A stretch of 64,000 bases of DNA from Pseudomicrostroma phylloplanum (Eukaryota > Basidiomycota > Exobasidiomycetes > Microstromatales), in NCBI GenBank assembly GCA_039545275.1, contig BCHS01000018.1, positions 248,001 to 312,000 of the forward strand, given 5' to 3'. Below the pieces are notes generated by a model. It had not been told where the DNA came from. It saw nothing but the letters and a program-made list of their open reading frames with translations, and did no database searches. The position numbers were made by a program, and so were the translations under genes. Positions 19,645-46,252 of the stretch are shown here, piece by piece (positions within the stretch are counted from its first letter, which is position 1; each line of letters starts with the position of its first letter).

Positions 19645-21467
19645 ATGGCCAACACCGGCTACGCCTCGGACGAGAAGAAGGACTTGGCCTTGGGCACCAC
19701 TCGCTCTGCCTCGGATGACAACATGGTCGGTCACGCTGGCATTCCCGATGAGGTGCCATCCAAGATCACCACTCGGTGCCTCCTGCTCATGATGACCATC
19801 TGCGCCGGAGGATTCCTCTTCGGTTACGACATTGGTGAGTAGCGAACAAGTGTGGCATCACTAGCATGTTCGGGTGAGCAAGATGCAGCAAGAGGTTGAC
19901 CATCTTCCCTCGGCCCCTCATCTTTGCTGCGACAGGTGTCATGAGTGGTGTCCTGATTATGCGGGACTTTGTGCTGCGTTTCGGCGGTGCCGAGACCGCG
20001 CCGGGATCGAACGCCTGGAGTCTGCCAGACCAGGCCATCTCCGAACTCAACGCTACGCTCTCGGCTGGAACCTTCTTCGGCGCTCTCCTCCAGGCCCCCC
20101 TCTCCGACTATCTCGGTCGTCAGAGAAGCATGATCGTATGGGCTCTGTCCTTTACCATCGGCGCTATCATCCAGACTGCCACGAACACCTCCATTCCCCA
20201 ATTCATCGTCGGTCGAATCTTTGCTGGTCTCGGTGTGGGAGCCCTCTCCGGCCTGTGCCCTCTGTACCTAGGAGAGACTGCACCCAAGGCGATCCGAGGT
20301 ATGATGGTGTCCGGATACCAGCTCCTCATCATCTTCGGTATCTTCCTTTCCTATGGTATCGGCTGGGCCTCGCACAACGCTGAATTCTCGTCTGCATCGT
20401 GGCGAATCCCGGTAGGCCTGCAGATGCTCTGGGGTGTCCTCCTGATCGGATTGGTCACATTGCTCCCAGAGTCACCACGATGGAATCTTCAGAAGGGTAA
20501 CCTGCTCAAAGCACGAGAGACTATGGCTTCCATGCGAGGATTCACCCTCATCGACACTCCCGAGGGACCTCGCGGCGACGCTGCTCTCGAGGACGAGCTC
20601 GCCGAGATGGAGCAGTTCATCAGCGCCGAGCGAGAGGCATTCGCTGGAACCAACTACCTCACTGCCTACGCCAAGTGCTTTTCCCGTGACAAGCAACTCT
20701 GGCGACGAACTCTGCAGGGTATGCTTGTCCAGATGTTCCAGCAGCTCAACGGACAGAACTTCTACTACTACTACGGTCCCATCTTCTTCCAGTCTGCCGC
20801 CGTCGCTCTAGACTCATACCAGATTCAGTTCATCCTTGGAGCTGTCTCATTGCTCGCCACCATTCCCGCCCTCGTTACCGTCGAGAAAATGGGGCGCAGG
20901 AGCTCCCTGCTCGTCGGATCCGTCGGATGCGCGACATGCGCTTTCATCGTTGCCTTTGTTGGACGCTACTCGCTCGCACCCAAGGGAACCCCTCCTGAGG
21001 CTCTCACCAGCTCTCAGAAGTCTGCTGGAGGTGCCTTCATTGCCTTTGCAGTCATCCACCTAGTCTTCTTCAGCACTTTCTGGGGCCCAGTCCCCTGGAT
21101 CTACCTCTCGGAGTCCTTCCCTCAAAACACCCGAGCAAAGTGCATCTCTCTAGGTGCCGCAAGCAACTGGTTCTGGAACTTTATGCTCAGTTATTTTGGT
21201 CCCAGCCTCAACACTCAGTATGGAACCTATATCCTTCTCATTTTCGGTAGCATCACTTACACGGCTGGCATTTTCGTGTACTTCTGCTTGCCCGAGGTCA
21301 AGGGTCTCTCGCTCGAGCAAGTGGACTACATGTACGAATCCGGAGCAGCGAACAAGGCCTGGACTACAAGCAAGTGGGTCCCTCCCATCGGTGACACAAA
21401 CAGGGCTACGCTCGGTAGTGGTACGAAGAGGGTTGTGGGTAACCATGTCGGTAACGACACCGCGTAG
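19645..21467 (+). CDS. MFS sugar (hexose) transporter
   Basis: Exons 19645-19834 and 19936-21467, intron 101 nt (GTGAGT...CAG); 573 residues. The spliced join completes the sugar-porter start GGFLFGYDIGVMSG in TM1. Other signature elements are DYLGRQRSM after TM2, RIFAGLGVGALSGLCPLYLGETAPKAIRG (PESPR follows TM6), QQLNGQNFYYYYGP in TM7, VEKMGRR, and the terminal PEVKGLSLEQVD. This is the 12-span sugar porter family (TC 2.A.1.1), plasma membrane, proton symport or facilitated hexose uptake; QQLxGxNxxYYY favours hexose. An inverted, decayed copy of the last 70 codons of a close relative lies at 26369-26582, beyond the endonuclease array. Confidence 0.94.
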
Positions 21468-23083: not shown

Positions 23084-24510
23084 ATGCTAGGCGTAGACAC
23101 GGTAATTAGGACTCCCGAGGGAGAGCGCACCATCGGCTCTCTTCCAACCGGCGCAATCGTGTATGACTCTCATAACCGAGAGATCGAGGTCGAGGTTGGT
23201 CCGCCCATCGAGATGGAGCGGCCATACGAGGTAGAATACTACTCCCTCCATCACAACGAGGCCCGCGCTGGTCGCGCCGGTCTACAGAGCTATACCTGCG
23301 ATGCAGATCATCCTCTCCTCCTTGTCGCTCCAACGTACGTCTCCGCCTTTGCACCGACGCAAAATGATGCAAGGCGTCGAGTCACTTGGCAGACACGTTG
23401 CGTGGGCTACATGCCCACCGACGAGGAGATTGCCCAAGAGGCTTTGAGACTGGACCTGCCCGAAGAGCACGAAGAGAGTGACCGAGAAGACTCTACACGA
23501 CAAGGCAGCCAGAGGATTGCGAACTTGGGTCTCGGACCCTTGCTTGCTTCCTCATCCCCATCCCAAGAGCCGTCAAGTGACCCCAGCTGGCACTCGAGAT
23601 CTGATTCAGATCGAAGCGACGATGCAGACAACTCTGATGATAGCGACGCAGAAATGCTGCCGCCGCCAGCACCCAGCTCCGACGATTGGCTGCAGAACAA
23701 CAACTATTCGCCCGCCCTCATCAACAGGGTACGAGGACGCCTGGACAACGAGCAGGCATGTACACGCAAGGCAGTCCGTACCTTCACCCTTCTTTGTGGC
23801 AATGAAGCGCAGGCGGCACACATCAGAGACGCCCTTCGTTCGCAGCTGAGTGCACACGTCGACCCTGGAGCTCTCTTGGCTGGAGAAGCGCACGTGCTCA
23901 CAGCGCAGCAGTACGTCGACTCTCCTCACGTCAAAAAATCCAATTCTGGCGCTCCTGTGCCCGGCCAGTTCTTGAAGATGGGCCGCTTTCCCCACGAGTT
24001 GCTCCCGGCTACGGGTGTCGCCGCCGCCGACCTGCCACTGGATCCTCAGTGGCTGGGATGGTGGTATGGCGATGGAAACCATGACCACCCTACCATCGCT
24101 GCCGCTGCCAGCGACGAGGCACCTGTGCGCCGCAAGTGCCAAGCAATTGTAGCTGACCTCAATGCCCACAAGCCAGAGGGTGCGGACCCAGTCCACCTGG
24201 CCGTCACCTTCATTCCGGCCAACGACTCTGGAGCCGTGGTGTCGCGTCAAGACTGCTAGTGGGCGCTCGGGTACCCACTGGAACCCATACGCTGATAGTA
24301 TGCTTACCTTGGGCATCTGGACCAACAAAAAGGCGACAGGTATACCACAGGTATACAAGGATGCAAGTGATGAAGCCAGGTCGGCGTTGTTGGCAGGATG
24401 TATGGACAGAGAAAGCTGCGCGATCAACAACCGCACGGCGTACAGCGTCTCGCAAGCAGCCAAATATCGCCAGCTACTCGAAGCTGGGCGAAAGGTCGCC
24501 CTGGGTCTGC
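23084..24510 (+). pseudogene. HO/VMA1-intein-like homing endonuclease, copy 1 (Hint N-half intact, frameshifted in second LAGLIDADG half)
   Basis: ATG at 23084; 391 codons are open to TAG at 24257-24259. Residues 1-125 match the N-terminal Hint half of the yeast VMA1 intein and HO: MLGVDTVIRTPEGERTIGSL (HO also begins ML and has no intein Cys1), and block B TCDADHPLLLV at 71-81 (T and H conserved). An acidic Ser-rich linker follows. The next part resembles the DNA-recognition segment (AHVLTAQQYVDSPHV), then LAGLIDADG motif 1 (QWLGWWYGDG). Compared with copy 2, 20 nt are missing after 24256, which shifts frame and creates the stop. Similarity continues in the other frame to about 24510, where motif 2 reads LLAGCMDRES: the catalytic Asp position is Glu. 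Copy 1 is probably dead as a nuclease, though a Hint protein with half the endonuclease could still be made. Confidence 0.8.
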
Positions 24511-25379
24511 CATCTTGCCCGGCGAAACCCACGTACTCACCGCCCTTCAATACGTCAACTCCCGTCACGTCCGAAACCCTGCTGCTGGAGCTCCGGCGCC
24601 GGGAGCCTACCTGAAGATGGGACGGTTCCCTTTCGAGTTGTTGCCTACGGAAGGTGCCGTGGCGGAGGACATGCCGCTTGATTCTCAGTGGCTGGGGTGG
24701 TGGTTTGGAGACGGAGATCATGACGCTCCCACCATCGCCGCGGCAGCGAGCGACCAGGCTCCGATCCGTGCCAAGTGCGAAGCAATTGTCAACGATCTCA
24801 ACTCTCGCAGGCCAGAGGGAATGGATCCACTTCACCTCGCCGTGACCCTCATCCCTGCAAACGACTCGGGCGATGTAGTCAGTCATCAGGACTGCTACAC
24901 CTTTAGGATTTCAGGCAGTGCGCGTCCAGGCACGCACTGGAATCCTTACGTCGACCGGATGCGGGCGCTGGGAATCTTCGATAACAACAAGGAGAATGGC
25001 ATACCACAAGTTTACAAAGGAGCAAGTGAAGAAGTTCGCGCGGCGGTCCTGGCAGGCTTCATCGATACCGATGGCTGCCTCATTAACAACAACAACGCCT
25101 ATACTCTTTCTCAGTGCGTCAGGCACCGACGCCTGGTCGAAGATGCTCGCGAGGTTGCGATGGGCCTTGGCATCGACCGCAATGGCCGCAACCGAAACAG
25201 ATGATTCGAGCAGCTGGCGTTCGGCCTCTTCGGACCTCATCTCGCAAAGCTACAACCACACATTCCTCTCACTCGGAAGCGACTGCGACCGACATGGATC
25301 GACAGTGAGCTTCGCGCTCTCCTAGTAGAAGAGGCAGCAGGGCCTGTGATGGGTCGCAGCATCCGGTACCCAGGGCACG
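24511..25379 (+). pseudogene. HO/VMA1-intein-like homing endonuclease, copy 2 (both LAGLIDADG motifs intact, no Hint N-half, one internal stop)
   Basis: It begins abruptly at the point matching copy 1's ETHVLTALQYVNSRHV segment, so it lacks the Hint N-half and a natural start. The frame that covers it is open from 24398. Motif 1 is QWLGWWFGDGDHD and motif 2 is VLAGFIDTDGCL; both catalytic Asp positions are present. After GIDRNGRNRNR a TGA at 25202-25204 replaces the Gly codon seen in copy 3, then the same frame continues as FEQLAFGLFGPHLAKLQ and LRALLVEEAAGPVMGR up to about 25379. Protein identity to copy 1 and copy 3 is clearly high, but the nucleotide match by eye is only about 70-75 percent. 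The copies are therefore old or diverged before being joined, not an assembly stutter. Confidence 0.8.
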
Positions 25380-25925
25380 GTCTACAAGGCTGCAAGCGAA
25401 GAAGCTCGCGCCGCCCTTCTTGCCGGTTTCATCGATACCGACGGTTGCCTAATCAACAACGGCACCGCCTACACGGTGTCGCAGTCGGTTCGTCACCGAC
25501 AGCTGATCGAAGACATGCGGGAGGTAGCAATCGGGCTCGGCATCAAGGTGGGTCAACTGCGCCAGTACTGGGCGCCAGACCCAGCCGGTTTGGTAAACGA
25601 CGACCACGATGAGCACGACGACCACGATGAGCACGACGACCACGACGACCGCGACCGCAATCGCAACAGAGGCTTCGAACAGCTCGCCTTTGGCATGTTC
25701 GGGCCGAACCTTGCCAAGATTCAGCCCTACCTGGCATTGACGAGGAAGCGAGTGTATGGGTCGTGGATCGACAGTGAGCTTCGCGCTCTGCTCGTCGAGG
25801 AGGCAGCGGGTCCGGTAATGGGCCGTCACATTGCACTACCTGGGCACGAGGTCACCACCCTCCAGCTCAGGGAAGGCTACATTGTGTATGCGGACGCCCC
25901 TGCCGCTGTTCAGGCAGCGCCCTGA
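25380..25925 (+). pseudogene. HO/VMA1-intein-like homing endonuclease, copy 3 (5'-truncated; second LAGLIDADG plus C-terminal Hint half)
   Basis: Starts abruptly inside the segment VYKAASEEARAALLAGFIDTDG, so it has only LAGLIDADG motif 2 (intact) and everything after it, ending at TGA 25923-25925. An Asp/His-rich stretch of about 26 residues is inserted after the second core. The final part, GPVMGRHIALPGHEVTTLQLREGYIVYAD, has the pattern of Hint block F (VMA1: hydrophobic strands ending VVVHN), but the terminal His-Asn of inteins is replaced by Ala-Asp. Protein splicing is therefore not expected. It is the only copy that keeps the complete 3' end. Copies 2 and 3 are in different frames at their junction (about 25380). 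Confidence 0.8.
25600..25650 (+). repeat. 18-bp tandem repeat coding an Asp/His-rich tract
   Basis: Two and a half copies of an 18-nt unit (GACGACCACGATGAGCAC) that codes DDHDEH repeats, followed by Arg/Asn codons. The tract is absent from copy 2 at the equivalent position, so it expanded or was gained in copy 3. Confidence 0.85.
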
Positions 25926-26368
25926 CAGACCCCCTGCGCCACTACAGCGCGATCAACCCTCCGTCCCTTGCGTTGTTCTCCTCGCTCGCACCAAGTTTCC
26001 TTCTTCGGTACCATCCTACTTCTCTTTGTCACCCACTTCTCTTCACCACCCACTTGTTTTCGTCACTGACTACAATCAAAGATTCAAGACTTCAGATCGT
26101 ACCGAATGACCGTGGGTACATCACTTGTGTTAAAATTCAAGCCACTTTCTCATTGTGAGACATGAGTCACTTGAAGTGAGTAAGCATCGGACCGCGCCAT
26201 TTGCAATGGCGGCATTCAAGCGACGACAGAAGAGGAAATTGGCGTAGTGTGTGTCGCTCTCTGTTTCAATCATAAGTGACATGCATTTGTCTCAAGGCTT
26301 ATACAGTGCGTCGGGAGGACCGCCAATTCGCCTCCGCGCTGTTCGCGCCTCTGCTCCCCGCCTCGGCC

Positions 26369-26582
26369 CTACGCAGCATTGTCACCGACACCGTTGCCCC
26401 ACGACGCGCTTGCTCCCGGTAGCTAGAGTGTTTTGGTTGGTATCGCCAACTGGTGGTATGCATTTGCTGGTGGTCCAAGCCTTGTCTGCTGCTCCAGACT
26501 CACACATGTAGTCCACCTGCTCCAAAGAAAGATCTCTTACTTCTGGGAGACAGAAGTATACGAAGATGCCTGCGGTGTATAG
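26369..26582 (-). pseudogene. 3'-terminal fragment of an MFS sugar transporter gene, inverted, frameshifted
   Basis: The minus strand codes YTAGIFVYFCLPEV, LSLEQVDYM, ESGAADKAWTTSK and PPVGDTN, matching the last 70 codons of the transporter at 19645-21467. Near the end one extra G (about 26395) shifts frame; without it the reading would finish in register, ending in the family's last residues at the stop 26369-26371. No match to the transporter is seen upstream of Tyr-Thr-Ala, so the 5' 500 codons are missing. Nucleotide identity by eye is roughly 70 percent with many silent differences. It therefore came from a diverged paralogue or is an old duplicate. Confidence 0.85.
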
Positions 26583-27448: not shown

Positions 27449-27476
27449 GGGCAGGCAGGCAGGCAGGCAGGCAGGC
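27449..27476. repeat. GGCA tetranucleotide microsatellite
   Basis: Six to seven tandem GGCA units. Confidence 0.9.
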
Positions 27477-27478
27477 GA

Positions 27479-27513
27479 GGTGCGGTGCGGTGCGGTGCGG
27501 TGCGGTGCGGTGC
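27479..27513. repeat. GGTGC pentanucleotide microsatellite
   Basis: Seven perfect tandem GGTGC units directly after the GGCA repeat. Confidence 0.92.
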
Positions 27514-28124: not shown

Positions 28125-30088
28125 ATGGTCTGGCAGCTGCCCGTCCTCACTGGCAATGCCATTCGAGGAAAGGCTCTCACTGGAGCCGTTGCCATGATCG
28201 CATCGACTGGCTTCCTTCTCTTTGGCTACGACCAAGGAGTCATGAGCGGTCTCATCAACACCACTCAGTGAGTAGGCGAGGGCCAGCACCTAGCATAGGG
28301 CATGCAGAGGTGTATGTGACCCACCCCACTGACACACTCGCATTACGCCCACCCTTTGCCCTCCGTAGGTTCTACGACACCTTCCCCACCATCACTGAGC
28401 TCACGGACCCCACCACAGGTGACTCCCTCAACCCTCAATTCCAATCGGCAGTACAAGGCGCCGTCGTGGCCATCTATGAGATCGGAGCCCTGATCGGATC
28501 ACTTATCATCCTATGGAAGGGAGATGCCATGGGTCGAAGGACGTCCATCGCCATTGGAGCCACCATCATGACCATCGGCGCTGTTATCATGACTGCTTCC
28601 TTCGGCATCGCACAATTCACGGTAGGACGCATCATCACTGGAATTGGCAACGGCATGAACACCTCCACTATTCCCATGTGGCAGTCTGAACTCTCCAAGG
28701 CTCACAACCGTGGAATGCTGGTGTTGGTCGAGGGAGCTCTGATTGCAGGCGGTATCATGTTGTCCGTGAGTAGTGTCGAGGCTGAGTGGAGTGACCTGAC
28801 GCCACACGCACACACACCGTACTGAGAGACCAACCATTCCTCCACCCCCTCCTCTCAGTACTGGATCGACTATGGATTCTACCAGATCAAGGACTCGTCG
28901 GTCTCTTGGCGATTCCCCCTTGCCTTCCAGTGCGTCTTTGCGCTGACGCTCCTCTTTGGTGTCCTCTGTCTGCCCGAGTCTCCTAGATGGCTGATCAAGA
29001 AGGGTCACTCCGAGCAAGCCGCCAAGATCTTGGCGCAAGCTGATGACACTACAGTCGACGACCCTGCCATCAAGTCCAACCTGCGTCAACTCGAGGAGTC
29101 CATCTTCGCCTCCGAGCAGCTCATGGGCGACTTCTCCTACAAGGAGCTCCTCACCAATGGGCCAGAGCAGAACTTCTACCGAACCTGCATTGCATTCACC
29201 GCCCAGGCCTTTCAGCAGCTGTCCGGCATCAACCTTATTACATACTATGCGACGACGGTGTTCTTGTCCATCCAACCGAACGAAAATATCGCCCGACTGC
29301 TGACCTGCGGCAACGGCACCGAATACTTTGTGGCATCCGTGGTGGCCCTCTTCTTGATCGACACGCTGGGCAGGAGGAAGCTCATGATGGGAACCGCCTT
29401 CTTGATGAGTGCGTCCATGGCCGTCTTGACTGGTACGGTGTACAAGGTCGAGAATTCTCCCATTGGCTCTGGTGGTGCATCGGCCATTGTTGCTGCCGTG
29501 TTCCTCTACCTCTTCAACACCTGGTTCGCCCTCGGTTGGCTGGGCATGACTTGGCTCTACCCACCCGAGATTACGCCCATCAGGATCCGTGCTCCTGCCT
29601 CTGCCATTGCCACCTCGAGCAACTGGATCTTCAACTTCTTGATCGTCATGATCACTCCTCCTGCCTTCAACTCCATTGCCTACCAAACGTACATCATCTT
29701 TGCCGTCCTCAACATGGCCTTCATTCCCGTCATCTGGGCCTTCTTCCCCGAGACGAAGCGACGTGGTCTCGAGGAGATGGACTTGATCTTTGCCGAGGCC
29801 AACGACCAGGGCTTCTGGAGCGCCAAGTACTTCATGACTCACGCTTGTCGTCTGTCCATCACCAAGCCGCACATGACTTCCGAAGAGCTGGACGAGGAGT
29901 TGGTCAGGCGCTTCGGCAAGGACGCCACCACTGGCGTCAAGAGGCCCATCGGTGAGAATGCCCCCGACAAGACGGAGGCTGTTCTCGAGAAGCAAGCGGC
30001 AGAGGGAGCCGTGGACGACGGCAAGGCCACTAGCGCCGGGCACGATGAGGCTACGAGCTCCCGCTCAGGATCCGCCGCATCTCACTGA
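28125..30088 (+). CDS. MFS sugar transporter (second, distinct paralogue)
   Basis: Exons 28125-28267, 28369-28765 and 28859-30088; introns of 101 and 93 nt (GTGAGT donors); 589 residues. TM1 has GFLLFGYDQGVMSG. Further hallmarks: GDAMGRRTSI, GRIITGIGNGMNTSTIPMWQSE, PESPRWL, QAFQQLSGINLITYY in TM7, DTLGRRKLM, and PETKRRGLEEMD after TM12. A 70-residue hydrophilic Ala/Glu-rich tail follows. QQLSGINLITYY and the PETKRRGLEEMD ending place it with fungal sugar permeases of the high-affinity glucose, quinate or lactose-permease-like groups, different from the transporter at 19645. Substrate not assignable. A 510-codon antisense frame over it is a shadow. Confidence 0.93.
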
Positions 30089-38055: not shown

Positions 38056-41000
38056 TTACGACACTCTGACTACCACCGCTCCAGGCTCCTCCTCGACTCC
38101 TCCCCTCGTCACGGGGTCAAAGGCACGTGCAGCGTCCTCGAAGGGCAGGATGCTCCTCAGCCGAGGACAGATGTCTCCACTCTCAGCGACCGCCCGCACA
38201 TTCTCCAGTGCCTCTTTGCAATCCTCTGAATTCTCCAGTCCAGTCCACTCGTAGCGAATGTTCTTCTTGTCCTTCTTGAAGAAGGTCCTGCGAAGTGAGC
38301 GCATGTGCGAGCGGAAGTTGGGGTTGGCAGAGGTGTGCTCGTCGCCGAAGCAGGTCACGAATTGGCCCTCGGAGGCAAGGATGCGGCGCGAGGCGTCGTA
38401 CAGACGTCGACCACCGATGGTATCGATGACCAGGTCGAAAGAAGACTCGTGCAGCGAATTCATCGCCCACAGAGGCTCTCCTACTACGACCTCGTGTGCG
38501 CCATTGGCCTCGCAGACGGCCAGCCCATCGCTGATGGAGGCGGGACACTGCGCAACCATGATCAGGCCCAGGGAGGCACACTCTTGCATCGTCAGCAGCC
38601 CAATGCCGTCGTGGGCATTGAGGATGAGAATGCGGGCTCCCTTCGGCAGGTGTGCACAGTGATTCTGCACAATCTGGTAGGTCAGGACACCCGTAGCCGG
38701 TAGGGCTGCGATCTGCTCGACTGTCAAGCAGTCCTCGGGTGCCTTGGCAACAAAGTCCTGATCGATGATCATGAACTCGGCCAGAGCTCCGCACTTGCGG
38801 TTGGACTGGAGACCGAAGACCATGTCCCCCTTGCGCAGGCGCTTCACCTCCCAGCCCACCTCCATGACCCTGCCACAGAAGGATCTGCCCGGGACCCAGC
38901 CGTACGCCGAGTCAGAGCGGACCTTGTCTCGTAGGAGCATACGATCCATCTCGTCAAGAGCGACGGTGATGATTTGTACTAGAATCTGGTGGCTACCGAT
39001 CTTGCGCGGTGGAGGCGTGTGAGCTGAAAGACTAAGCACAGTCAATCCCAGCTCGTCCTGTAGATGCTCCGGAACTGCGTCGGCAGAGGATTGAGCGGGT
39101 CCATCCACAGACGGGCGGCTAGTGCTACCACTTCGAGACTTGCTGCCTCGCTTGCTTGCGAAGGCTCCCGAAGTTACAGAGATGGTCGCCATTGTCGTGC
39201 GAGAGTAGAGGCGGTCGTCGACTATACTGCTCGAGGCAGCCTTGACGGGATCCTGGGGTCGGTACACGGAGCGGGATGTGGGTGCGGTTGGCAAGCTTGC
39301 GAGCGACATTGGGATCGAAGCTGCAGTGAAGCCTGACATGACAGACATCGGCCGCTGAGAGCCTCGAGGACCTCCATGGCCGTCCACGCTACCTCCGTTC
39401 GCCGTGCCGTACCTCGAGCCACCGTACTCGCTTCCACCCCCACCTCCGTGGCCTCCTTCGGAAGCAGCGTAGATGCGATCGCTACCACTGACATGAGCCT
39501 CGAAAGCGAGTCTCTTCTTCTCCTCTGCGGTCATCCTAGAGCGCGGGACAGGTGGGTGCAGATAGGTCTCTGTCGTTGATCCATACGGGGCGTTCCTCCC
39601 GATACTCGCCGAGTCATCGTTCCTGATCGAGCCTGTGCTTCGCGAAGTCGGTGACATAGCATCGATGGGGCTTGACATCTGTGCAGGAGTAGTGTACCCG
39701 CTTCCTCCATAGCCATTGACAGGAGAAGCAGACTCCCACTCATTGATGGCAGTCATCAGGTGAGGGCGACGATTGAGCTGGTTATTGCTGGACTGCGTCC
39801 TCACTCTTGCAGGCTGACGACGGCTGTCGGACACATCAGACGCAGCCATGTTGGACACGCCATACATGTCAGACCTGCCGGCGTTGCCGCCTGACGAGTC
39901 GCCCGAGCCACCACTGCGGGCCGGCGAGTCGTCTGCGCCTACGCTCGAGGCAGCAGCAGAGCCCGCCCAAGACCCGGTCGATGGAGGTGGCGAGATACTG
40001 CTGAGAGAGGCATTGTTGGGGAGCCTCAAAGGCGACTGTTGACGCGGTGACCCATCATCCTTGGGTGGGACAGGCGGCTGCTGAAGGTCTCGGGGAATGG
40101 CCGGGACAGGGGGTTGCTCCGCGCGTGAGCCGCGACGAGAGGACGAATGACCACCATCGCTACTCGAGCTCCTTCGTGGACTGGCACTGGCGCTCCGGCG
40201 CGGGCTGGGGATGGTCTGCTGCTTGACGTCACTTGAAGCAGCAATAGTCTCTGCAGTGAGGCCCGGAGGAAGCGTGAAGCCGTACGCTTCGGCAGCTTGC
40301 AAGATGCTGCCCTTTCGACGAGTTGGTACAGCAGTCGCGGAAGACACTGCAGATGCCGAGCTAACGGATCGCGCCAGATCCGCGTTTGGTCCATATGACA
40401 TGTAGTTGCTTCCATCGGCCCCACTGTGAACGGGAGGAGTAGGCGGGATGATGTTCATCCCGAATTGAACATCAGGTTGTTGAGACTCGTATTGTGGCTG
40501 AGGTTGAGACTCGTATTGGGCAGCGGGTTGAGGCTCGTATTCTAGCTCCTGCTGATGCTCGTATTGGGCAGCGGCTTGAGGCTCGGCTTGAAGAGCGGCT
40601 TGAGGTGCGCTCTCAACTTCGCGCGTGTGCACAGGACTGGCGTAGTCTTCCTGCACTGCAGCCATCGCACTACTGCCCTCGGCGCCATTAGCGTCGTATG
40701 ATTGGGCAGGCTCAGCAACGGCCCGATCCTCCACACTGGCTACTGGAGCTTGTGACGAGAAGACATCGGTAGCAGAGCTGGGCACCTCATCTGTAGACTG
40801 CGCAGTGGGGTTCGACTCGTAGCTTTGGCGACTGAAGCTGCTCTGCTGCGCGTCTGGCTCGCCCTGCGTCTTGACGAGCGAAGGAGTCGGGGAAGCAAGG
40901 GAGGCTTCCGTCTCAGCAGAGGGCGCCGTCTCCTGGCTGATCTCCTTCTCCTTGCCAGAGGGAGTGCTCGTGGCAGCAGTCTTGACCCCTCCCTTCGCTT

Positions 41001-44000
41001 CCTTCTCCTCCTTTCGAGCAGCCTTTCTGGCAGCCTTCTCGTTCAGCGAGTCTCTCCTTGCCCTCTCCTTCTCTTCCCTCTGAGCAGCCCTTGCCTGCTT
41101 CTTTTCCGGACTCTTCGTCGGGAAGCTGAAGAGGGTATCGGCGAGGGACTTGGCAGGGCGGAGCTTCAGAGCCGACTTGGCTGGTGCAGGCTTGTCTTTC
41201 GAACGCTGTTGATCGCCTAGATCGATCGACTTCTTGGCTGGTGCGGGAGAGGATGGGTTGCTCGTGGCTCCGGTGGAGTAGAAGGCCTCTACGTTAGATC
41301 GCCCATCGACTGGTGCTGGCAGCTCTCCGGCGGGTGCCTTGCCCAGAGGAATGTCAACACTGCCTATCTGCTTGAACCTGCTCGGTCGGAAGCGCGGTCG
41401 GTCGAGAACACTTTGACCTGCCTTTGCGGTCTTGGTTGGAGTAGCCGACGTAGTGGATCGTCCACCCCAATTGGCTGGCGAGTCGGTGATAGCAGAGACG
41501 CTGGTAGGCACATCTCTCTTCACCGGCTCTTTCGCAGGCTCTGCATCAACACCGTTCAATGGCTTCCCCAGCCATAGAGCGGCGAAGCTTGCTGCCAGAC
41601 CACCGGCATCGCTCTGGACAGTCTTGTGATCCGCATCTACATCTCCCGCAGCCCTCCTTCGCCTGACCTCGCTAACAATCTGCTGTGCTTGTAGCTGAGC
41701 CCTGGTGGTATCCTCTATTGAAACTCCCTGAGCTCTCGCCTCTTCCTCCAAGGCGGCAGTCTTACCGACAGTCTCTGTCGTGAAGTCCATGTTGTCAATG
41801 GCTAGCAAGACTTCTCCGAGCGAAGGTCCGAAGAAGTCGTCACCGACGCTCATGTTCCTCAGCCTGTTCTGTTCGACCAGAGCTCTCTTCTTCAGCTCCT
41901 CGTCGTCGCCCGAAGCATTGCCATCGGAATCGGAGTCATCTTCGTGCAGCTTGATCCTGCGCGAAGAGGATTTGCCGGTGATTTTGGAGCCCATGAAGTG
42001 CGAGAAGGCAAAAGAGTTGGCCATCGAACCGCTAGAAGACAAGCGTCTCGCTAGCGGCCTGCGAGTAGACTGTTCAGCGGTCCTGTCTGAATCCGCGATA
42101 CTGGCGGCATCGGCCTGTCCATCGAGCTCTTTGACTTTGCCTTGTGCACTCCTTCGTCGACCGGAACGAGTGACGCCATCTGCCAGGTCTTCCACACTCT
42201 CATCACTATCATCATCAGCTTTGCCTGCATCTCCCTCAAACTTGACACCCTTGGGGCTGTCTTCACGAGGTGCCTTGACAGCCTGCGCTGTCCTGACCGA
42301 CGACGTATCGCCATCTTTGCCGCTGTCGTTATCCACGTCTCTCGACAGATCGCCCGAGTCAGACGACGAGGACGAGGAAGCGGTCTCATCGGCTACCGAA
42401 TCTCCGGCCTGGCCTGATGCAATGGCGCGGCCCAGCATTGGGGCAGAGCCATTGTACCTTGACGGAGTAGTGGGGGAAGAGGGAGCCAAAGTAAATGCCT
42501 CCGACTGGGAAGAAGCGAGCGGCGGAGTCTGTGGAGTCTTCAAGGGTTGGCTGACCGAACTAGTGCGGGTTGGCAGTTGAGGGCGGGGCGACATCGAAGA
42601 AGGAGCTGTCGCGGTTGATCTTTGACTCTTGGCGGGTGTTGTGGGAGTCTTCGTCGACTCTGCCACGGGAGCCACATCCTCGGTCTGGGCGGCAGGCTGC
42701 GTCTTCCCTGATGTACTCCACAAGAAGGCTAGAGCTGGGGCAGCGGCTCCGGCGGCGGCCGTCGCTGAAGATGAAGCTTGCGAGCGCTCTACAGGCGTCT
42801 CTGTTGCATTTGCGGTCGGAGGTGACGCGGCAGAGGCACCGTTCTGTGATGCGTGCCATGGCGTCCCACCCAGCGAGGGCGCGGCGACGTTGGCGGATGC
42901 AGGAGCTGCCACCTCCCTCGCAGCAGGCGCTTCTGTTGCAGCCACGGCGGGTGAGCCTACTACTCCTATCTGCTCATCCCTTGATCTCTGTGAAGGCTCA
43001 GGGGTTGCTTCGGGTTGTGGGCGCTGCTCAGGCAGTCCAGTCTGCTCTACAGCGGTGACCGGAGGTAGCGCAGGAGCGGGTGAGTTGCCCTCCTGCACCA
43101 CAGCAGCAGTCGGTGGTCGTGCACCTACTCCCGCAAATCCACCATTCGAGCTACTGCCAGAGCTCCGTTGTGCCGAAGCAGCGAACGCGGTATACTTGGT
43201 AGGTGAATGAGGGGAGTTGCTAGCTACCGGCCGCACAGGAGATCGTGGAAGATAAGTGCTTCGCGGACCCGGCCTCATCTCGTGGCCACCGTCTGAGGAG
43301 CCATCCTCCTCCTCTTCTGCCAAGACCCCAAGAGTCTGTGGTCGGTCGTCTTCAGAGGAGGAGGCATCTCCTTCGGCCTCGTCCTCTTCGGAACTCGAAG
43401 AAGAAGAGTCGGATGAAGGATCTTGCGTAGACGTCTGAAGAAGTGGAGGCAGGCGCTGCTGATTCGAAGGCTGGGATGCAACAGGTTCGACCGCCTTGCT
43501 GGCTTGCGCAGTCTGCTCTTGAGGCGCCATGCTCTGCGCAGTTTGCGGCGCTGCAGATGGCTCTTGTTGCTGTGCTGGGAACTGGTATGGAGCCGGCGCA
43601 GGGGCCGTCTGGACTTGCTGTTGTACAGGAAGGGGAACCCTCGCCTGGGGAGGCGGTGACAGGGCACGAGCTTGAGGCGGCGGCGACATGACTCTAGCCT
43701 GAGGCGGTGGCGACATGGCTCGAGACTGCGGAGGAGGCGACATTGCTCTCACAAGCGGCAGAGGCGTGGGCGATGTAGACGTAGACCTTGGTGCTTCCGG
43801 TGACATCAGACTCGTCATCCCAACAATGGAGCCAGGTCGAAGGTTGACTGGCAGCTCAGGCACGAGGGTGTCTGTCATGGTTGTGGGTGCAATACCGCCT
43901 ACGACGCTGGTCGCCCTTGCAAGCAGATCCCCACGGATCACGCCAGGATCCCTAGCGACCTGCTCGAATTGAGCATCCTGCTGCAACTCCTTCTGAACGC

Positions 44001-45018
44001 GATTCAGCACTGTGGATCTCTGTGCCTGTGGTTGTGAAGCTGAAGATGTGGTAGACCCTGGGGCACGACTCCAGGACTTGGCAATGTCGCGCTTCGCCAT
44101 CTGTTTGGTGAAGTCATCCCAGCCCGAGTCAGAGGCAGAACTTGATCCGACTACGCTACTGGCTCGTCGTGTACCGCTTGAACTCTGGGGAGCACCCGCA
44201 GAGGGGCCGAGTAGACCCAGGGTAGAATGTCTGTTGCTACCAACACTGCCCGATGAAGAGAGGTTGCGTCGGAGAGTGGGGGGCTGCTGACCCAAGGGCG
44301 CAACACCCGATTGCAGCCTGCCTCCGTTGGACATGGCCTTCAGCATGGCAGGGTCATGCTGGGGTAGAGGCGGTGGTTTCGAAGAGTAGGATGTGGAGGC
44401 TCCGAAATCGCTACGAGTGCCTCTGCGAGTAGGCAAGCTGCCGTACTGTCTCTGCTGCAGTGAAGCTAATCCACCGTTGCGGCCTTCAGGCTCGACATCG
44501 GAGAAGACGCTCTCTCCAGCCACACTGTCGCCCATGACACTGTTCGCGCGACTCCTTGACCCTTTGCCGAATCCTTTCAGACTGCCCGTTTCCCACCACC
44601 TCTTCTTGGTGTAGGTGGCGGTTGAGCCGGCATTGGAAGCGCGTTCATCCATGGGAGCAGTCCCGTACGAAGAGTCTGATGTGTTCCGCACATGAGTCTT
44701 CTTCTTCCTTCCAAAACGGCTCCTCGTCGTTCCTTGGCTATCCGCCACGGACGAGGGAGCAGGAGGCGGCGGCCCAGTGGCATAAGTGCGAGAAGGGCGG
44801 TTGGAGTTCGCAGAAGAGGCGGGAGGGGGATGGTAGGCCCGCAGAGAAGACGGACCAGATGGGCGGTTGGGGAGATCTGTTGGGCCCGACCACTTCTTCG
44901 AGCCAGAGCCGCCCTTGGAGGACGAAGCCGATGCAGATGGGGCAGGTGGGGCAATTGGTTCCGGTGCGTACCTCTGACTAGGCCGCTGCAAAATAGAGTC
45001 CATGAAAGTTCGCGGCAT
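38056..45018 (-). CDS. Giant mostly disordered protein with C-terminal medium-chain dehydrogenase/reductase (MDR) domain
   Basis: An intronless frame; the ATG at 45018 (MPRTFMDSILQRP) gives 2,320 residues. The frame is open 40 codons further upstream but without an ATG. Residues 1-1980 are low-complexity (Ser, Ala, Pro, Gln, Glu) with several short repeats: four units of MSPPPQAR-type at about 423-460 and YE(P/S)Q repeats at about 1495-1525; Glu/Ser-rich acidic and Lys/Arg-rich segments alternate. The last 335 residues are an MDR domain: a GroES-like part with WVPGRSFCGRVMEVG and GDMVFGLQ, then a Rossmann part with LPKGARILILNAHDGIGLLTMQ and DLVIDTIGG. No structural zinc cluster (four closely spaced Cys) is seen. 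A lone MDR domain fused to a long disordered head recalls Ast1-like fungal proteins in layout, but that is inference. Enzyme activity is uncertain. Confidence 0.8.
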   Translation of the reverse strand: MPRTFMDSILQRPSQRYAPEPIAPPAPSASASSSKGGSGSKKWSGPTDLPNRPSGPSSLRAYHPPPASSANSNRPSRTYATGPPPPAPSSVADSQGTTRSRFGRKKKTHVRNTSDSSYGTAPMDERASNAGSTATYTKKRWWETGSLKGFGKGSRSRANSVMGDSVAGESVFSDVEPEGRNGGLASLQQRQYGSLPTRRGTRSDFGASTSYSSKPPPLPQHDPAMLKAMSNGGRLQSGVAPLGQQPPTLRRNLSSSGSVGSNRHSTLGLLGPSAGAPQSSSGTRRASSVVGSSSASDSGWDDFTKQMAKRDIAKSWSRAPGSTTSSASQPQAQRSTVLNRVQKELQQDAQFEQVARDPGVIRGDLLARATSVVGGIAPTTMTDTLVPELPVNLRPGSIVGMTSLMSPEAPRSTSTSPTPLPLVRAMSPPPQSRAMSPPPQARVMSPPPQARALSPPPQARVPLPVQQQVQTAPAPAPYQFPAQQQEPSAAPQTAQSMAPQEQTAQASKAVEPVASQPSNQQRLPPLLQTSTQDPSSDSSSSSSEEDEAEGDASSSEDDRPQTLGVLAEEEEDGSSDGGHEMRPGPRSTYLPRSPVRPVASNSPHSPTKYTAFAASAQRSSGSSSNGGFAGVGARPPTAAVVQEGNSPAPALPPVTAVEQTGLPEQRPQPEATPEPSQRSRDEQIGVVGSPAVAATEAPAAREVAAPASANVAAPSLGGTPWHASQNGASAASPPTANATETPVERSQASSSATAAAGAAAPALAFLWSTSGKTQPAAQTEDVAPVAESTKTPTTPAKSQRSTATAPSSMSPRPQLPTRTSSVSQPLKTPQTPPLASSQSEAFTLAPSSPTTPSRYNGSAPMLGRAIASGQAGDSVADETASSSSSSDSGDLSRDVDNDSGKDGDTSSVRTAQAVKAPREDSPKGVKFEGDAGKADDDSDESVEDLADGVTRSGRRRSAQGKVKELDGQADAASIADSDRTAEQSTRRPLARRLSSSGSMANSFAFSHFMGSKITGKSSSRRIKLHEDDSDSDGNASGDDEELKKRALVEQNRLRNMSVGDDFFGPSLGEVLLAIDNMDFTTETVGKTAALEEEARAQGVSIEDTTRAQLQAQQIVSEVRRRRAAGDVDADHKTVQSDAGGLAASFAALWLGKPLNGVDAEPAKEPVKRDVPTSVSAITDSPANWGGRSTTSATPTKTAKAGQSVLDRPRFRPSRFKQIGSVDIPLGKAPAGELPAPVDGRSNVEAFYSTGATSNPSSPAPAKKSIDLGDQQRSKDKPAPAKSALKLRPAKSLADTLFSFPTKSPEKKQARAAQREEKERARRDSLNEKAARKAARKEEKEAKGGVKTAATSTPSGKEKEISQETAPSAETEASLASPTPSLVKTQGEPDAQQSSFSRQSYESNPTAQSTDEVPSSATDVFSSQAPVASVEDRAVAEPAQSYDANGAEGSSAMAAVQEDYASPVHTREVESAPQAALQAEPQAAAQYEHQQELEYEPQPAAQYESQPQPQYESQQPDVQFGMNIIPPTPPVHSGADGSNYMSYGPNADLARSVSSASAVSSATAVPTRRKGSILQAAEAYGFTLPPGLTAETIAASSDVKQQTIPSPRRSASASPRRSSSSDGGHSSSRRGSRAEQPPVPAIPRDLQQPPVPPKDDGSPRQQSPLRLPNNASLSSISPPPSTGSWAGSAAASSVGADDSPARSGGSGDSSGGNAGRSDMYGVSNMAASDVSDSRRQPARVRTQSSNNQLNRRPHLMTAINEWESASPVNGYGGSGYTTPAQMSSPIDAMSPTSRSTGSIRNDDSASIGRNAPYGSTTETYLHPPVPRSRMTAEEKKRLAFEAHVSGSDRIYAASEGGHGGGGGSEYGGSRYGTANGGSVDGHGGPRGSQRPMSVMSGFTAASIPMSLASLPTAPTSRSVYRPQDPVKAASSSIVDDRLYSRTTMATISVTSGAFASKRGSKSRSGSTSRPSVDGPAQSSADAVPEHLQDELGLTVLSLSAHTPPPRKIGSHQILVQIITVALDEMDRMLLRDKVRSDSAYGWVPGRSFCGRVMEVGWEVKRLRKGDMVFGLQSNRKCGALAEFMIIDQDFVAKAPEDCLTVEQIAALPATGVLTYQIVQNHCAHLPKGARILILNAHDGIGLLTMQECASLGLIMVAQCPASISDGLAVCEANGAHEVVVGEPLWAMNSLHESSFDLVIDTIGGRRLYDASRRILASEGQFVTCFGDEHTSANPNFRSHMRSLRRTFFKKDKKNIRYEWTGLENSEDCKEALENVRAVAESGDICPRLRSILPFEDAARAFDPVTRGGVEEEPGAVVVRVS

Positions 45019-46252
45019 GTTGAATAGCGTTAGGGGGGAAGATGATAGTTGGCTATGGCCCAAGAATTGACTGAGGGCTTGTTGTGTGTCTGGCAGTAGA
45101 ATCTGAGATGAGATTGACCGGGTCTCAAGTGGTGTCACCTGTGATGGAACTTCCAGGCGGCGCAGATGTGAATCTGCCGCGCCTTACAGGTGGTGTTGTA
45201 GTGAGCGCGATCGCAATGAAGTGACAAGGAGTTCCAAGAAGAGGACTACGGCGATACGATGACGCTCTCAGTGGATGCAAGAGGCGTCAAGTGGGGCGAC
45301 TGAGGACGCTGTGCAGCAGTGGAAGCTGCGTCCGAAGCCGTCTCTAGCCCCCCTCGGAACTCTTGGCAGATCGCCGAAAGAAGAGAGAGACGAGAAGTGC
45401 GAGACGCAAGGCTTCGTCGAGGAGGGCGACGGAAAAGATGAGGATGAGTAGAAGATCGTCAGGGAGAGGTGTTGGGGGTAAACTGTCTGAATGAGGGAGA
45501 ATGCAGCCCCTGCGAAGAAGAGGGTGAGTGAGAAAGGGTAGGCCTTGCCCTCTACAACGGGATGCTGCCTGCCTGCCTGCTTGGGATCATTTGGGAAGAG
45601 ATGTGCTGCCTGTGGCCCCGCTGCCCTTCCGCTCCACGGCTTGCTTGCTTGCACGCCTGCCTGCCCACACGCCTGCCCACACGCCAACCCGCCCGCCTCG
45701 CTTCAGCATCTTGGCCAGGCCAGACGGAGAATCAACTCCACCCACCGGAACCAAAAATCGCCTGGAGCGCGCATAATGATCATCATCATCATCATCTGCC
45801 TGAACCCTGTCTGCATGACAGCCAGGCAAGATCACTCAGCCGTGCCAGGGCACTTTGGCCCAGAGCCGCCGGCGGACGACGACGACGGCTAGCTCCGACG
45901 CCGCCATTGGCCCGCCCCTAGTCAGAGCCATTCTCGATGACGAAGGCCTCACCGGGCCACAAGCGCCGGCAAGTGCGGCCAGTCATGCAGCCCCGGACAC
46001 GCACTCACCAGCCACCACCCGACCCCCGCTCGCAGTTGACACCTGAAATTGGCTTGGTGCAAAAGCCGTAGGCGCGCAGCAGGCGGCAGAACGTGCCTGC
46101 CTGCCTGCACAAGCGCCGTCCCCGCTTCGCATAGGGCAGGACTTCGATCATGAGCATCTCGGATCGGATGCAACGGCAATGAACGATCAATGTGGGTATG
46201 ATTGCTTCCTCGGGTGGGGCACGCCTGCCTTGCCCGCTCGTACGGCTGCGTC
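45019..46252. other. Intergenic region with simple repeats, no gene seen
   Basis: About 1.2 kb holding the promoter of the giant gene and the 3' flank of the Nudix gene. GCCT-type microsatellites occur at about 45571-45590 and 45650-45690, and ATC repeats at 45779-45797. No supported open frame. Confidence 0.55.

Follow-up and report, generated by a model that had tools for sequence, protein, structure and literature searches.

Decayed, free-standing PI-SceI-type endonuclease copies beside sugar-transporter genes in Pseudomicrostroma phylloplanum: possible remains of a WHO-like homing element

HO and WHO genes, as PMC7282813 describes them, are intein-zinc finger fusions, with 3 to 5 CxxC motifs in the C-terminal zinc finger, and are largely restricted to a handful of Saccharomycetaceae genera. 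According to the same text, the WHO elements of Torulaspora lie behind FBA1, where homing has been proposed to replace the FBA1 3' end; host 3' fragments are left on the far side of the WHO gene, decaying copies gather in clusters, and WHO elements sometimes relocate to other genes. In K. lactis, a WHO12 pseudogene has a full-length CAO gene on one side and a damaged piece of CAO on the other (PMC7282813). From basidiomycetes, true inteins (PRP8, RPB2) are reported in PMC5784728 and PMC10849329, and PMC10158824 names the Pfam families Hom_end_hint and Hom_end as domain gains in fungi. No free-standing HO/WHO-like gene in a basidiomycete was found among the literature matches listed, judged by titles and abstract openings. 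Here, we describe an array of broken, intein-like endonuclease copies at positions 23084-25925 of a stretch of 64,000 nucleotides (the window; C18:248001-312000) from the genome of the basidiomycete Pseudomicrostroma phylloplanum. By analogy with WHO, this array may represent the remains of a free-standing homing element that had sugar transporters as hosts and is now dead here, a reading to which we assign a probability of about 0.6.

A broken array and the protein it encoded

The array lies on the plus strand and consists of three adjacent, damaged copies (A, B and C) of one protein of approximately 600 residues:

23084..24259, plus strand: first part of copy A; Hint-N with MLGVDT as block A and TCDADHPLLLV as block B, acidic Ser/Asp linker, recognition-like segment and LGWWYGDG, the first LAGLIDADG motif
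24258..24511, plus strand: second part of copy A, read in a different frame; 84 codons (24258-24509), in which the second LAGLIDADG motif has degenerated to LAGCMDRES
24515..25356, plus strand: copy B; recognition-like segment, LGWWFGDG and LAGFIDTDG, and the start of Hint-C, without Hint-N
25374..25925, plus strand: copy C; LAGFIDTDG, an acidic repeat and Hint-C, with the first two thirds missing

Pieced together across the copies, the protein reads Hint-N, linker, recognition-like segment, two LAGLIDADG motifs and Hint-C. The first-pass annotation had described three overlapping partial copies with this order; three partial copies and the order were indeed seen, but the copies are adjacent rather than overlapping and none of them holds the complete domain order. 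Copy A is read in one frame from 23084 to 24256, where a TAG stop follows at 24257, and its second part is 57% identical to copy B over 84 codons. Copy B carries one in-frame TGA (25202-25204), and the C-terminal end of copy C is EVTTLQLREGYIVYAD, in which Hint-C closes with EVTTLQLREGYIVYADAPAAVQAAP and a stop. The copies, initially called genes, are decayed pseudogenes, and every copy read in this genome was broken by a frameshift, a stop, a truncation or the lack of an ATG at the conserved start. The simplest history that we infer is one of three full tandem copies, followed by deletion of the A/B and B/C boundaries. Since the neighbouring transporter frames (529 and 546 amino acids) are unbroken and the damage to the array includes large deletions and junctions, genuine decay is likelier than an assembly or base-error artefact. 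An open frame on the reverse strand (23606-24910) had no Pfam match and was taken as a by-product of codon composition. Two local differences were also observed: an acidic His/Asp repeat, DDHDEHDDHDEHDDHDDRD, lies between the second LAGLIDADG half and Hint-C of copy C (25600-25660) and is not present in copies 2 and 3 of the related array on C10, and the recognition-like segments of the three C10 copies (C10:320780-324828) share an ACQCGAxRTF...CG motif, where copy A has ACTRKAVRTFTLLCG.

Judged by its sequence, the protein is certainly a LAGLIDADG endonuclease of the PI-SceI kind, probably surrounded by a Hint domain, as initially proposed. A profile built from 11 pieces of the family and compared with solved structures placed PI-SceI/VMA1 chains in all of the top five positions, with expectation values (E) of 6.6e-6 to 3.9e-5, over PI-SceI residues 209-372 and both motifs. 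D218 and D326 of PI-SceI, which we take to be its catalytic aspartates, aligned with the D of the family's GDG and the last D of IDTDG, respectively. By comparison, a Hint-N profile also retrieved PI-SceI first, at E=0.13 over chain residues 27-101, a weak but collinear match in which the block B histidine was aligned; Hint_2 was matched in one of seven rows (E=0.0053). The Hint-side matches to PI-SceI and Hom_end_hint are collinear and none is significant alone. A check of the copies against Pfam, which the first-pass annotation had proposed, came out in part: all matches of the five window pieces fell under the curated cut-offs (Hom_end_hint E=0.027 for copy A; LAGLIDADG_3 E=0.0013 and 0.00066; Hom_end E=0.0063 and 0.0024; weak and unrelated matches only for two pieces), whereas two of seven pieces from other loci, C10 copies 2 and 3, passed the Hom_end (PF05204) cut-off of 21.1 bits with 26.6 and 22.7 bits. 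In a genome search with PF05204, all four matches belonged to this endonuclease family, two of them above the cut-off. A scan of three pieces against NCBIfam gave one chance match (E=2.9), and AlphaFold2 models of copies A and B, made from window rows only, had a mean predicted local distance difference test score of 34.8 and 39.1 and were not used. Altogether, it is highly probable that the family is a free-standing homing endonuclease of the PI-SceI (VMA1 intein)/HO type.

The array copies are 57-80% identical in protein, and their differences fall mostly at third codon positions (p 2e-9 to 7e-8 in 4 comparisons); because of this bias and of relatives at other loci of the same genome, a chance origin of the array is excluded. 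Copies A and B differ by 0.21/0.17/0.50 at the three codon positions, with a ratio of nonsynonymous to synonymous divergence (dN/dS) of 0.13, and ratios of 0.08 (B/C), 0.04 (B tail/C) and 0.19 and 0.17 (C10 copies 2/3) were obtained elsewhere in the arrays. Where dS is unsaturated, copies within the C18 and C10 arrays thus diverged under purifying selection (dN/dS 0.04-0.19). The highest ratio within one locus was 0.32 (C13a/b); for c1/c2, c1/c3, c1N/c2N and c2N/c3N of C10 and for the second part of A against B, dS was saturated and the ratio undefined. Among the 20 codon comparisons made, including a transporter control (dN/dS 0.07), dS was at least 1 throughout, so that the ratios are rough, but the codon-position contrast is independent of them. 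Divergence dominated by third positions within the arrays therefore indicates that the copies diverged as working enzymes and broke later.

A free-standing family at seven loci

A search of the genome (17.08 Mb in 20 contigs, C1-C20) found the endonuclease family at seven loci including that in the window, one of them weak (C15), with a best E of 7.9e-64 for the other loci:

C10:320190-325391, plus strand: three tandem copies
C13:257557-259014: two tandem copies, N-terminal part alone
C1:370113-370945: family locus
C11:148629-148931: family locus
C9, about 212590-213091, minus strand: very decayed remnant
C15:114683-114901: weak locus (genome search E=1.1e-4, profile E=0.077)

The search scored the best candidates only; further decayed copies may therefore exist. 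Just past the C9 remnant, at C9:212296-212616, the Hint-N profile gave two weak matches, one per strand (E=0.004 and 0.011), which could be due to chance or to another decayed copy. Two of the seven loci (C18 and C10) are three-copy arrays. In a tree of 10 rows, from which C9 and C15 were omitted as too short, the C10 copies grouped with a bootstrap of 96 and the C13 copies with 92, and C18 was split from the rest with 79; by this tree, the arrays are locus-specific. One query each against prokaryote and viral contigs yielded no relative (42 and 5 pattern matches, 0 confirmed). The basidiomycete affiliation of the genome is slightly supported by one gene, an acetyl-CoA synthetase whose nearest solved structures are the 5ifi/5k85/5k8f set of Cryptococcus neoformans (902 bits, against 841 for the next).

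The proposal that these copies are free-standing rather than inteins was borne out. The position of Cys1 was recognisable in 5 copies and is occupied by Met in 3 of them (C18 A, C13b and C10c1) and by an Arg or Lys codon in C10c2 and C10c3. HO likewise begins with ML. The translations upstream of Met in C18A, C10c1 and C13b are mutually unrelated, and no host protein was recognised in frame; a fusion to a host gene with true intein termini was looked for at the loci read and none was found. Five copies retain a C terminus (C18C, C10c2, C10c3, C1 and C11); in each of them a stop follows 2-12 codons past the GYIV-like strand, and none has the terminal His-Asn. Intein_splicing (PF14890) had no genome match at E<=1, and with this profile no resident intein was found in the genome as a source; Hom_end_hint (PF05203) had no genome match either, a result of little weight since the same search missed copy A. 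Because Cys1, the terminal His-Asn and a host reading frame are all absent, the array is not an intein.

Sugar transporters, a proposed mechanism and its rivals

The array lies between two sugar-transporter genes, and a transporter fragment is found beyond it, features that the first-pass annotation does not mention:

19878..21467, plus strand: sugar transporter (Sugar_tr, PF00083; 360.8 bits), uninterrupted frame of 529 amino acids; candidate host gene
26368..26579, minus strand: 3'-terminal fragment (last ~61-64 codons) of the transporter at 19878-21467, in the opposite orientation to that gene
28361..29821, plus strand: second sugar transporter, downstream of the array (PF00083; 246.8 and 95.5 bits), with an in-frame TGA between the matched parts (intron or damage)

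In the window, the 3' end of the plus-strand transporter (19878-21467) is followed after 1617 base pairs (bp) by the array on the same strand. At the C10 locus, a plus-strand transporter (316770-318407) is followed by 1783 bp, the array (plus strand) and then another transporter; at C9, a minus-strand transporter is separated by 1.2-1.3 kilobases (kb) from the remnant, also on the minus strand. Three of the seven endonuclease loci thus lie 1.2-1.8 kb downstream of a sugar transporter on the same strand. The genome has approximately 23 sugar-porter loci (two transporter queries, E<=1e-8, grouped by hand), and with this number the binomial probability that three of seven loci fall less than 2 kb from a same-strand transporter 3' end is 8.5e-8; it is 8.0e-6 with the 105 candidate transporter stretches of a first look as an upper count and 2.7e-5 if C10 and C18 are counted as one (2/6), all three values being post hoc. 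A segmental duplication of C10 and C18 was considered and rejected, as in a DNA comparison of seven stretches these two had nothing in common except the endonuclease copies and the transporters.

The fragment at 26368-26579 is 70% identical in DNA to the adjacent transporter over 212 bp. It shares 48 of 60 residues with that transporter and at most 13 of 36 with each of four others, and over 61 codons its differences from the adjacent gene are 0.13/0.13/0.66 by codon position; the closest other transporter in the genome (C20) is 40% identical to the adjacent one over its length. The fragment starts sharply at about codon 460, with no other transporter part found beside it. Between the fragment and the downstream transporter are simple repeats of GGCA units and then GGTGC units (27454-27500). 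Elsewhere in the window, a minus-strand open frame of 2375 residues (38059-45183) was seen, with a zinc alcohol-dehydrogenase part near its C terminus (residues 2064-2360) as the sole Pfam match.

By analogy with the published systems, the endonuclease family would most likely have worked like WHO, and a homing link between this family and the transporters appears moderately favoured. According to this design, an intact enzyme would cut the 3' part of a sugar-transporter allele without the element, and repair from the element-bearing chromosome would copy the endonuclease gene behind the host transporter. The same repair would swap the host 3' end for a resistant one, with the old 3' end pushed outwards; repeated rounds could give rise to arrays, and copies would decay once no cuttable allele remained. 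The Hint fold, freed from splicing, may have been kept only as part of a DNA-binding scaffold.

Several observations weigh against a WHO-like element hosted by transporters. Transporters were chosen as a category post hoc, and C10 and C18 might come from one old cluster. Four of the seven loci adjoin other genes: at C13, a ZPR1 gene 1 kb upstream in the same orientation and, in the opposite orientation, a gene for a nucleoside transporter; at C1, SRPRB and a CSTF2-like gene; at C11, an FMO-like gene and an open frame unmatched in Pfam; and at C15, frames likewise unmatched. Among 18 further sugar transporters, 6 were sampled with 3.6 kb of 3' flank each and had no convincing remnant, the one match (E=0.6) being at chance level. 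A transporter 3' fragment was found at only one of the three transporter-linked loci; a five-transporter profile found no others in the stretches at C10, C9, C13, C1, C11 and C15. As now placed, the inverted fragment is unusable in the WHO scheme, which does not predict its orientation. No intact copy was found in this genome, which is that of a single strain, and none of the five copies keeping a C terminus has a CxxC there; the C9 remnant, too decayed to align at its C terminus, extends for approximately 21 more codons and likewise lacks CxxC. Finally, the evidence for the Hint part is weak: a joined seven-row profile found PI-SceI at E=6.4e-7, with a contribution of no more than 5.7 bits from the Hint part, and a phmmer comparison of copy A alone with solved structures gave chance matches only (best E=0.29).

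The rival that survives best, which we nevertheless regard as unlikely, accepts the same free-standing LAGLIDADG (Hint) family but takes the transporter link to be accidental or derived from one ancestral cluster, the arrays having arisen by tandem duplication of working paralogs. The grouping of the arrays as locus-specific clades, the four loci elsewhere, the six transporters without a remnant and the inversion of the C18 fragment all suit this explanation, and the relationship of the downstream C18 transporter to both C10 transporters (it is 49% identical to the upstream one) suits an inherited cluster. However, C9 provides a third transporter link, and to a different transporter, which has 28% identity with the upstream transporter of C10 and 33% with that of C18. 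Moreover, side, strand and approximate distance are the same at all three loci, and the C18 fragment is close to the adjacent transporter only, among the five compared. We judge it improbable that an intein or HO-like element was domesticated as a host gene, serving as a regulatory or switching nuclease rather than a selfish one, and that this gene was duplicated in tandem and later lost; the strong past purifying selection would agree with this, and PMC7282813 describes HO itself as such a case, but scattered, diverged and broken copies, none of them found intact in the genome, are better explained by the cycle of degeneration that homing elements pass through. That the copies are what is left of a true intein (VMA1, PRP8 or another) which is, or was until recently, part of a host reading frame is very improbable, since the VMA1 intein as the nearest solved structure and a Hom_end_hint search too insensitive to count against it are outweighed by the missing Cys1 and His-Asn, the early stops after the Hint-C strand, the unrelated upstream translations and the lack of an Intein_splicing match.

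On the preferred reading of a WHO-like homing element, selfish genes of a sort described from a small number of yeasts may not be limited to that group. Arrays of PI-SceI-type endonucleases that stand alone, have no zinc finger and lie behind basidiomycete transporters would suggest that inteins can leave their host protein more than once and come to rest beside a host gene. With such a family, the path from intein to HO could be tested comparatively, and sugar transporters would stand out as genes in which a selfish element may rewrite the 3' end.

Comparison with known systems

The basidiomycete PRP8 and RPB2 inteins are, according to PMC5784728 and PMC10849329, also Hint domains, some with LAGLIDADG, in nuclear genes; unlike the family described here, they are true inteins with exteins, none of which was found in this genome by PF14890. 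PI-SceI (the VMA1 intein; 1dfa, 1vde, 1um2 and others) is the best solved-structure match, with both presumed catalytic aspartates and the block B histidine aligned, whereas the family lies outside a host frame and is without Cys1 and the terminal His-Asn. With HO of Saccharomyces, the family shares an intein-like endonuclease with two LAGLIDADG motifs, the absence of exteins and Met at the Cys1 position; it differs in having no zinc finger and in being broken and present at several loci. The initial description of the array as HO-like thus holds for the type of endonuclease and the lack of exteins, but not for the zinc finger, and because this feature of the published HO/WHO description is missing, the family was filed neither as WHO nor as HO.

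Unlike WHO, the family has neither a zinc finger nor any CxxC at the C terminus of the five copies that retain this end, its three linked loci are beside sugar transporters and not FBA1, the single host fragment is inverted and the organism is a basidiomycete. Like the WHO elements of Torulaspora and Lachancea, as PMC7282813 describes them, it consists of free-standing intein-like endonuclease genes without exteins and without motif G, in tandem clusters of diverged, broken copies, some of which adjoin a full-length candidate host gene, with some loci elsewhere and a putative host 3' fragment near one cluster. The layout in the window, where a full-length transporter is followed by a dead endonuclease array and a transporter 3' fragment, resembles the WHO arrangement.

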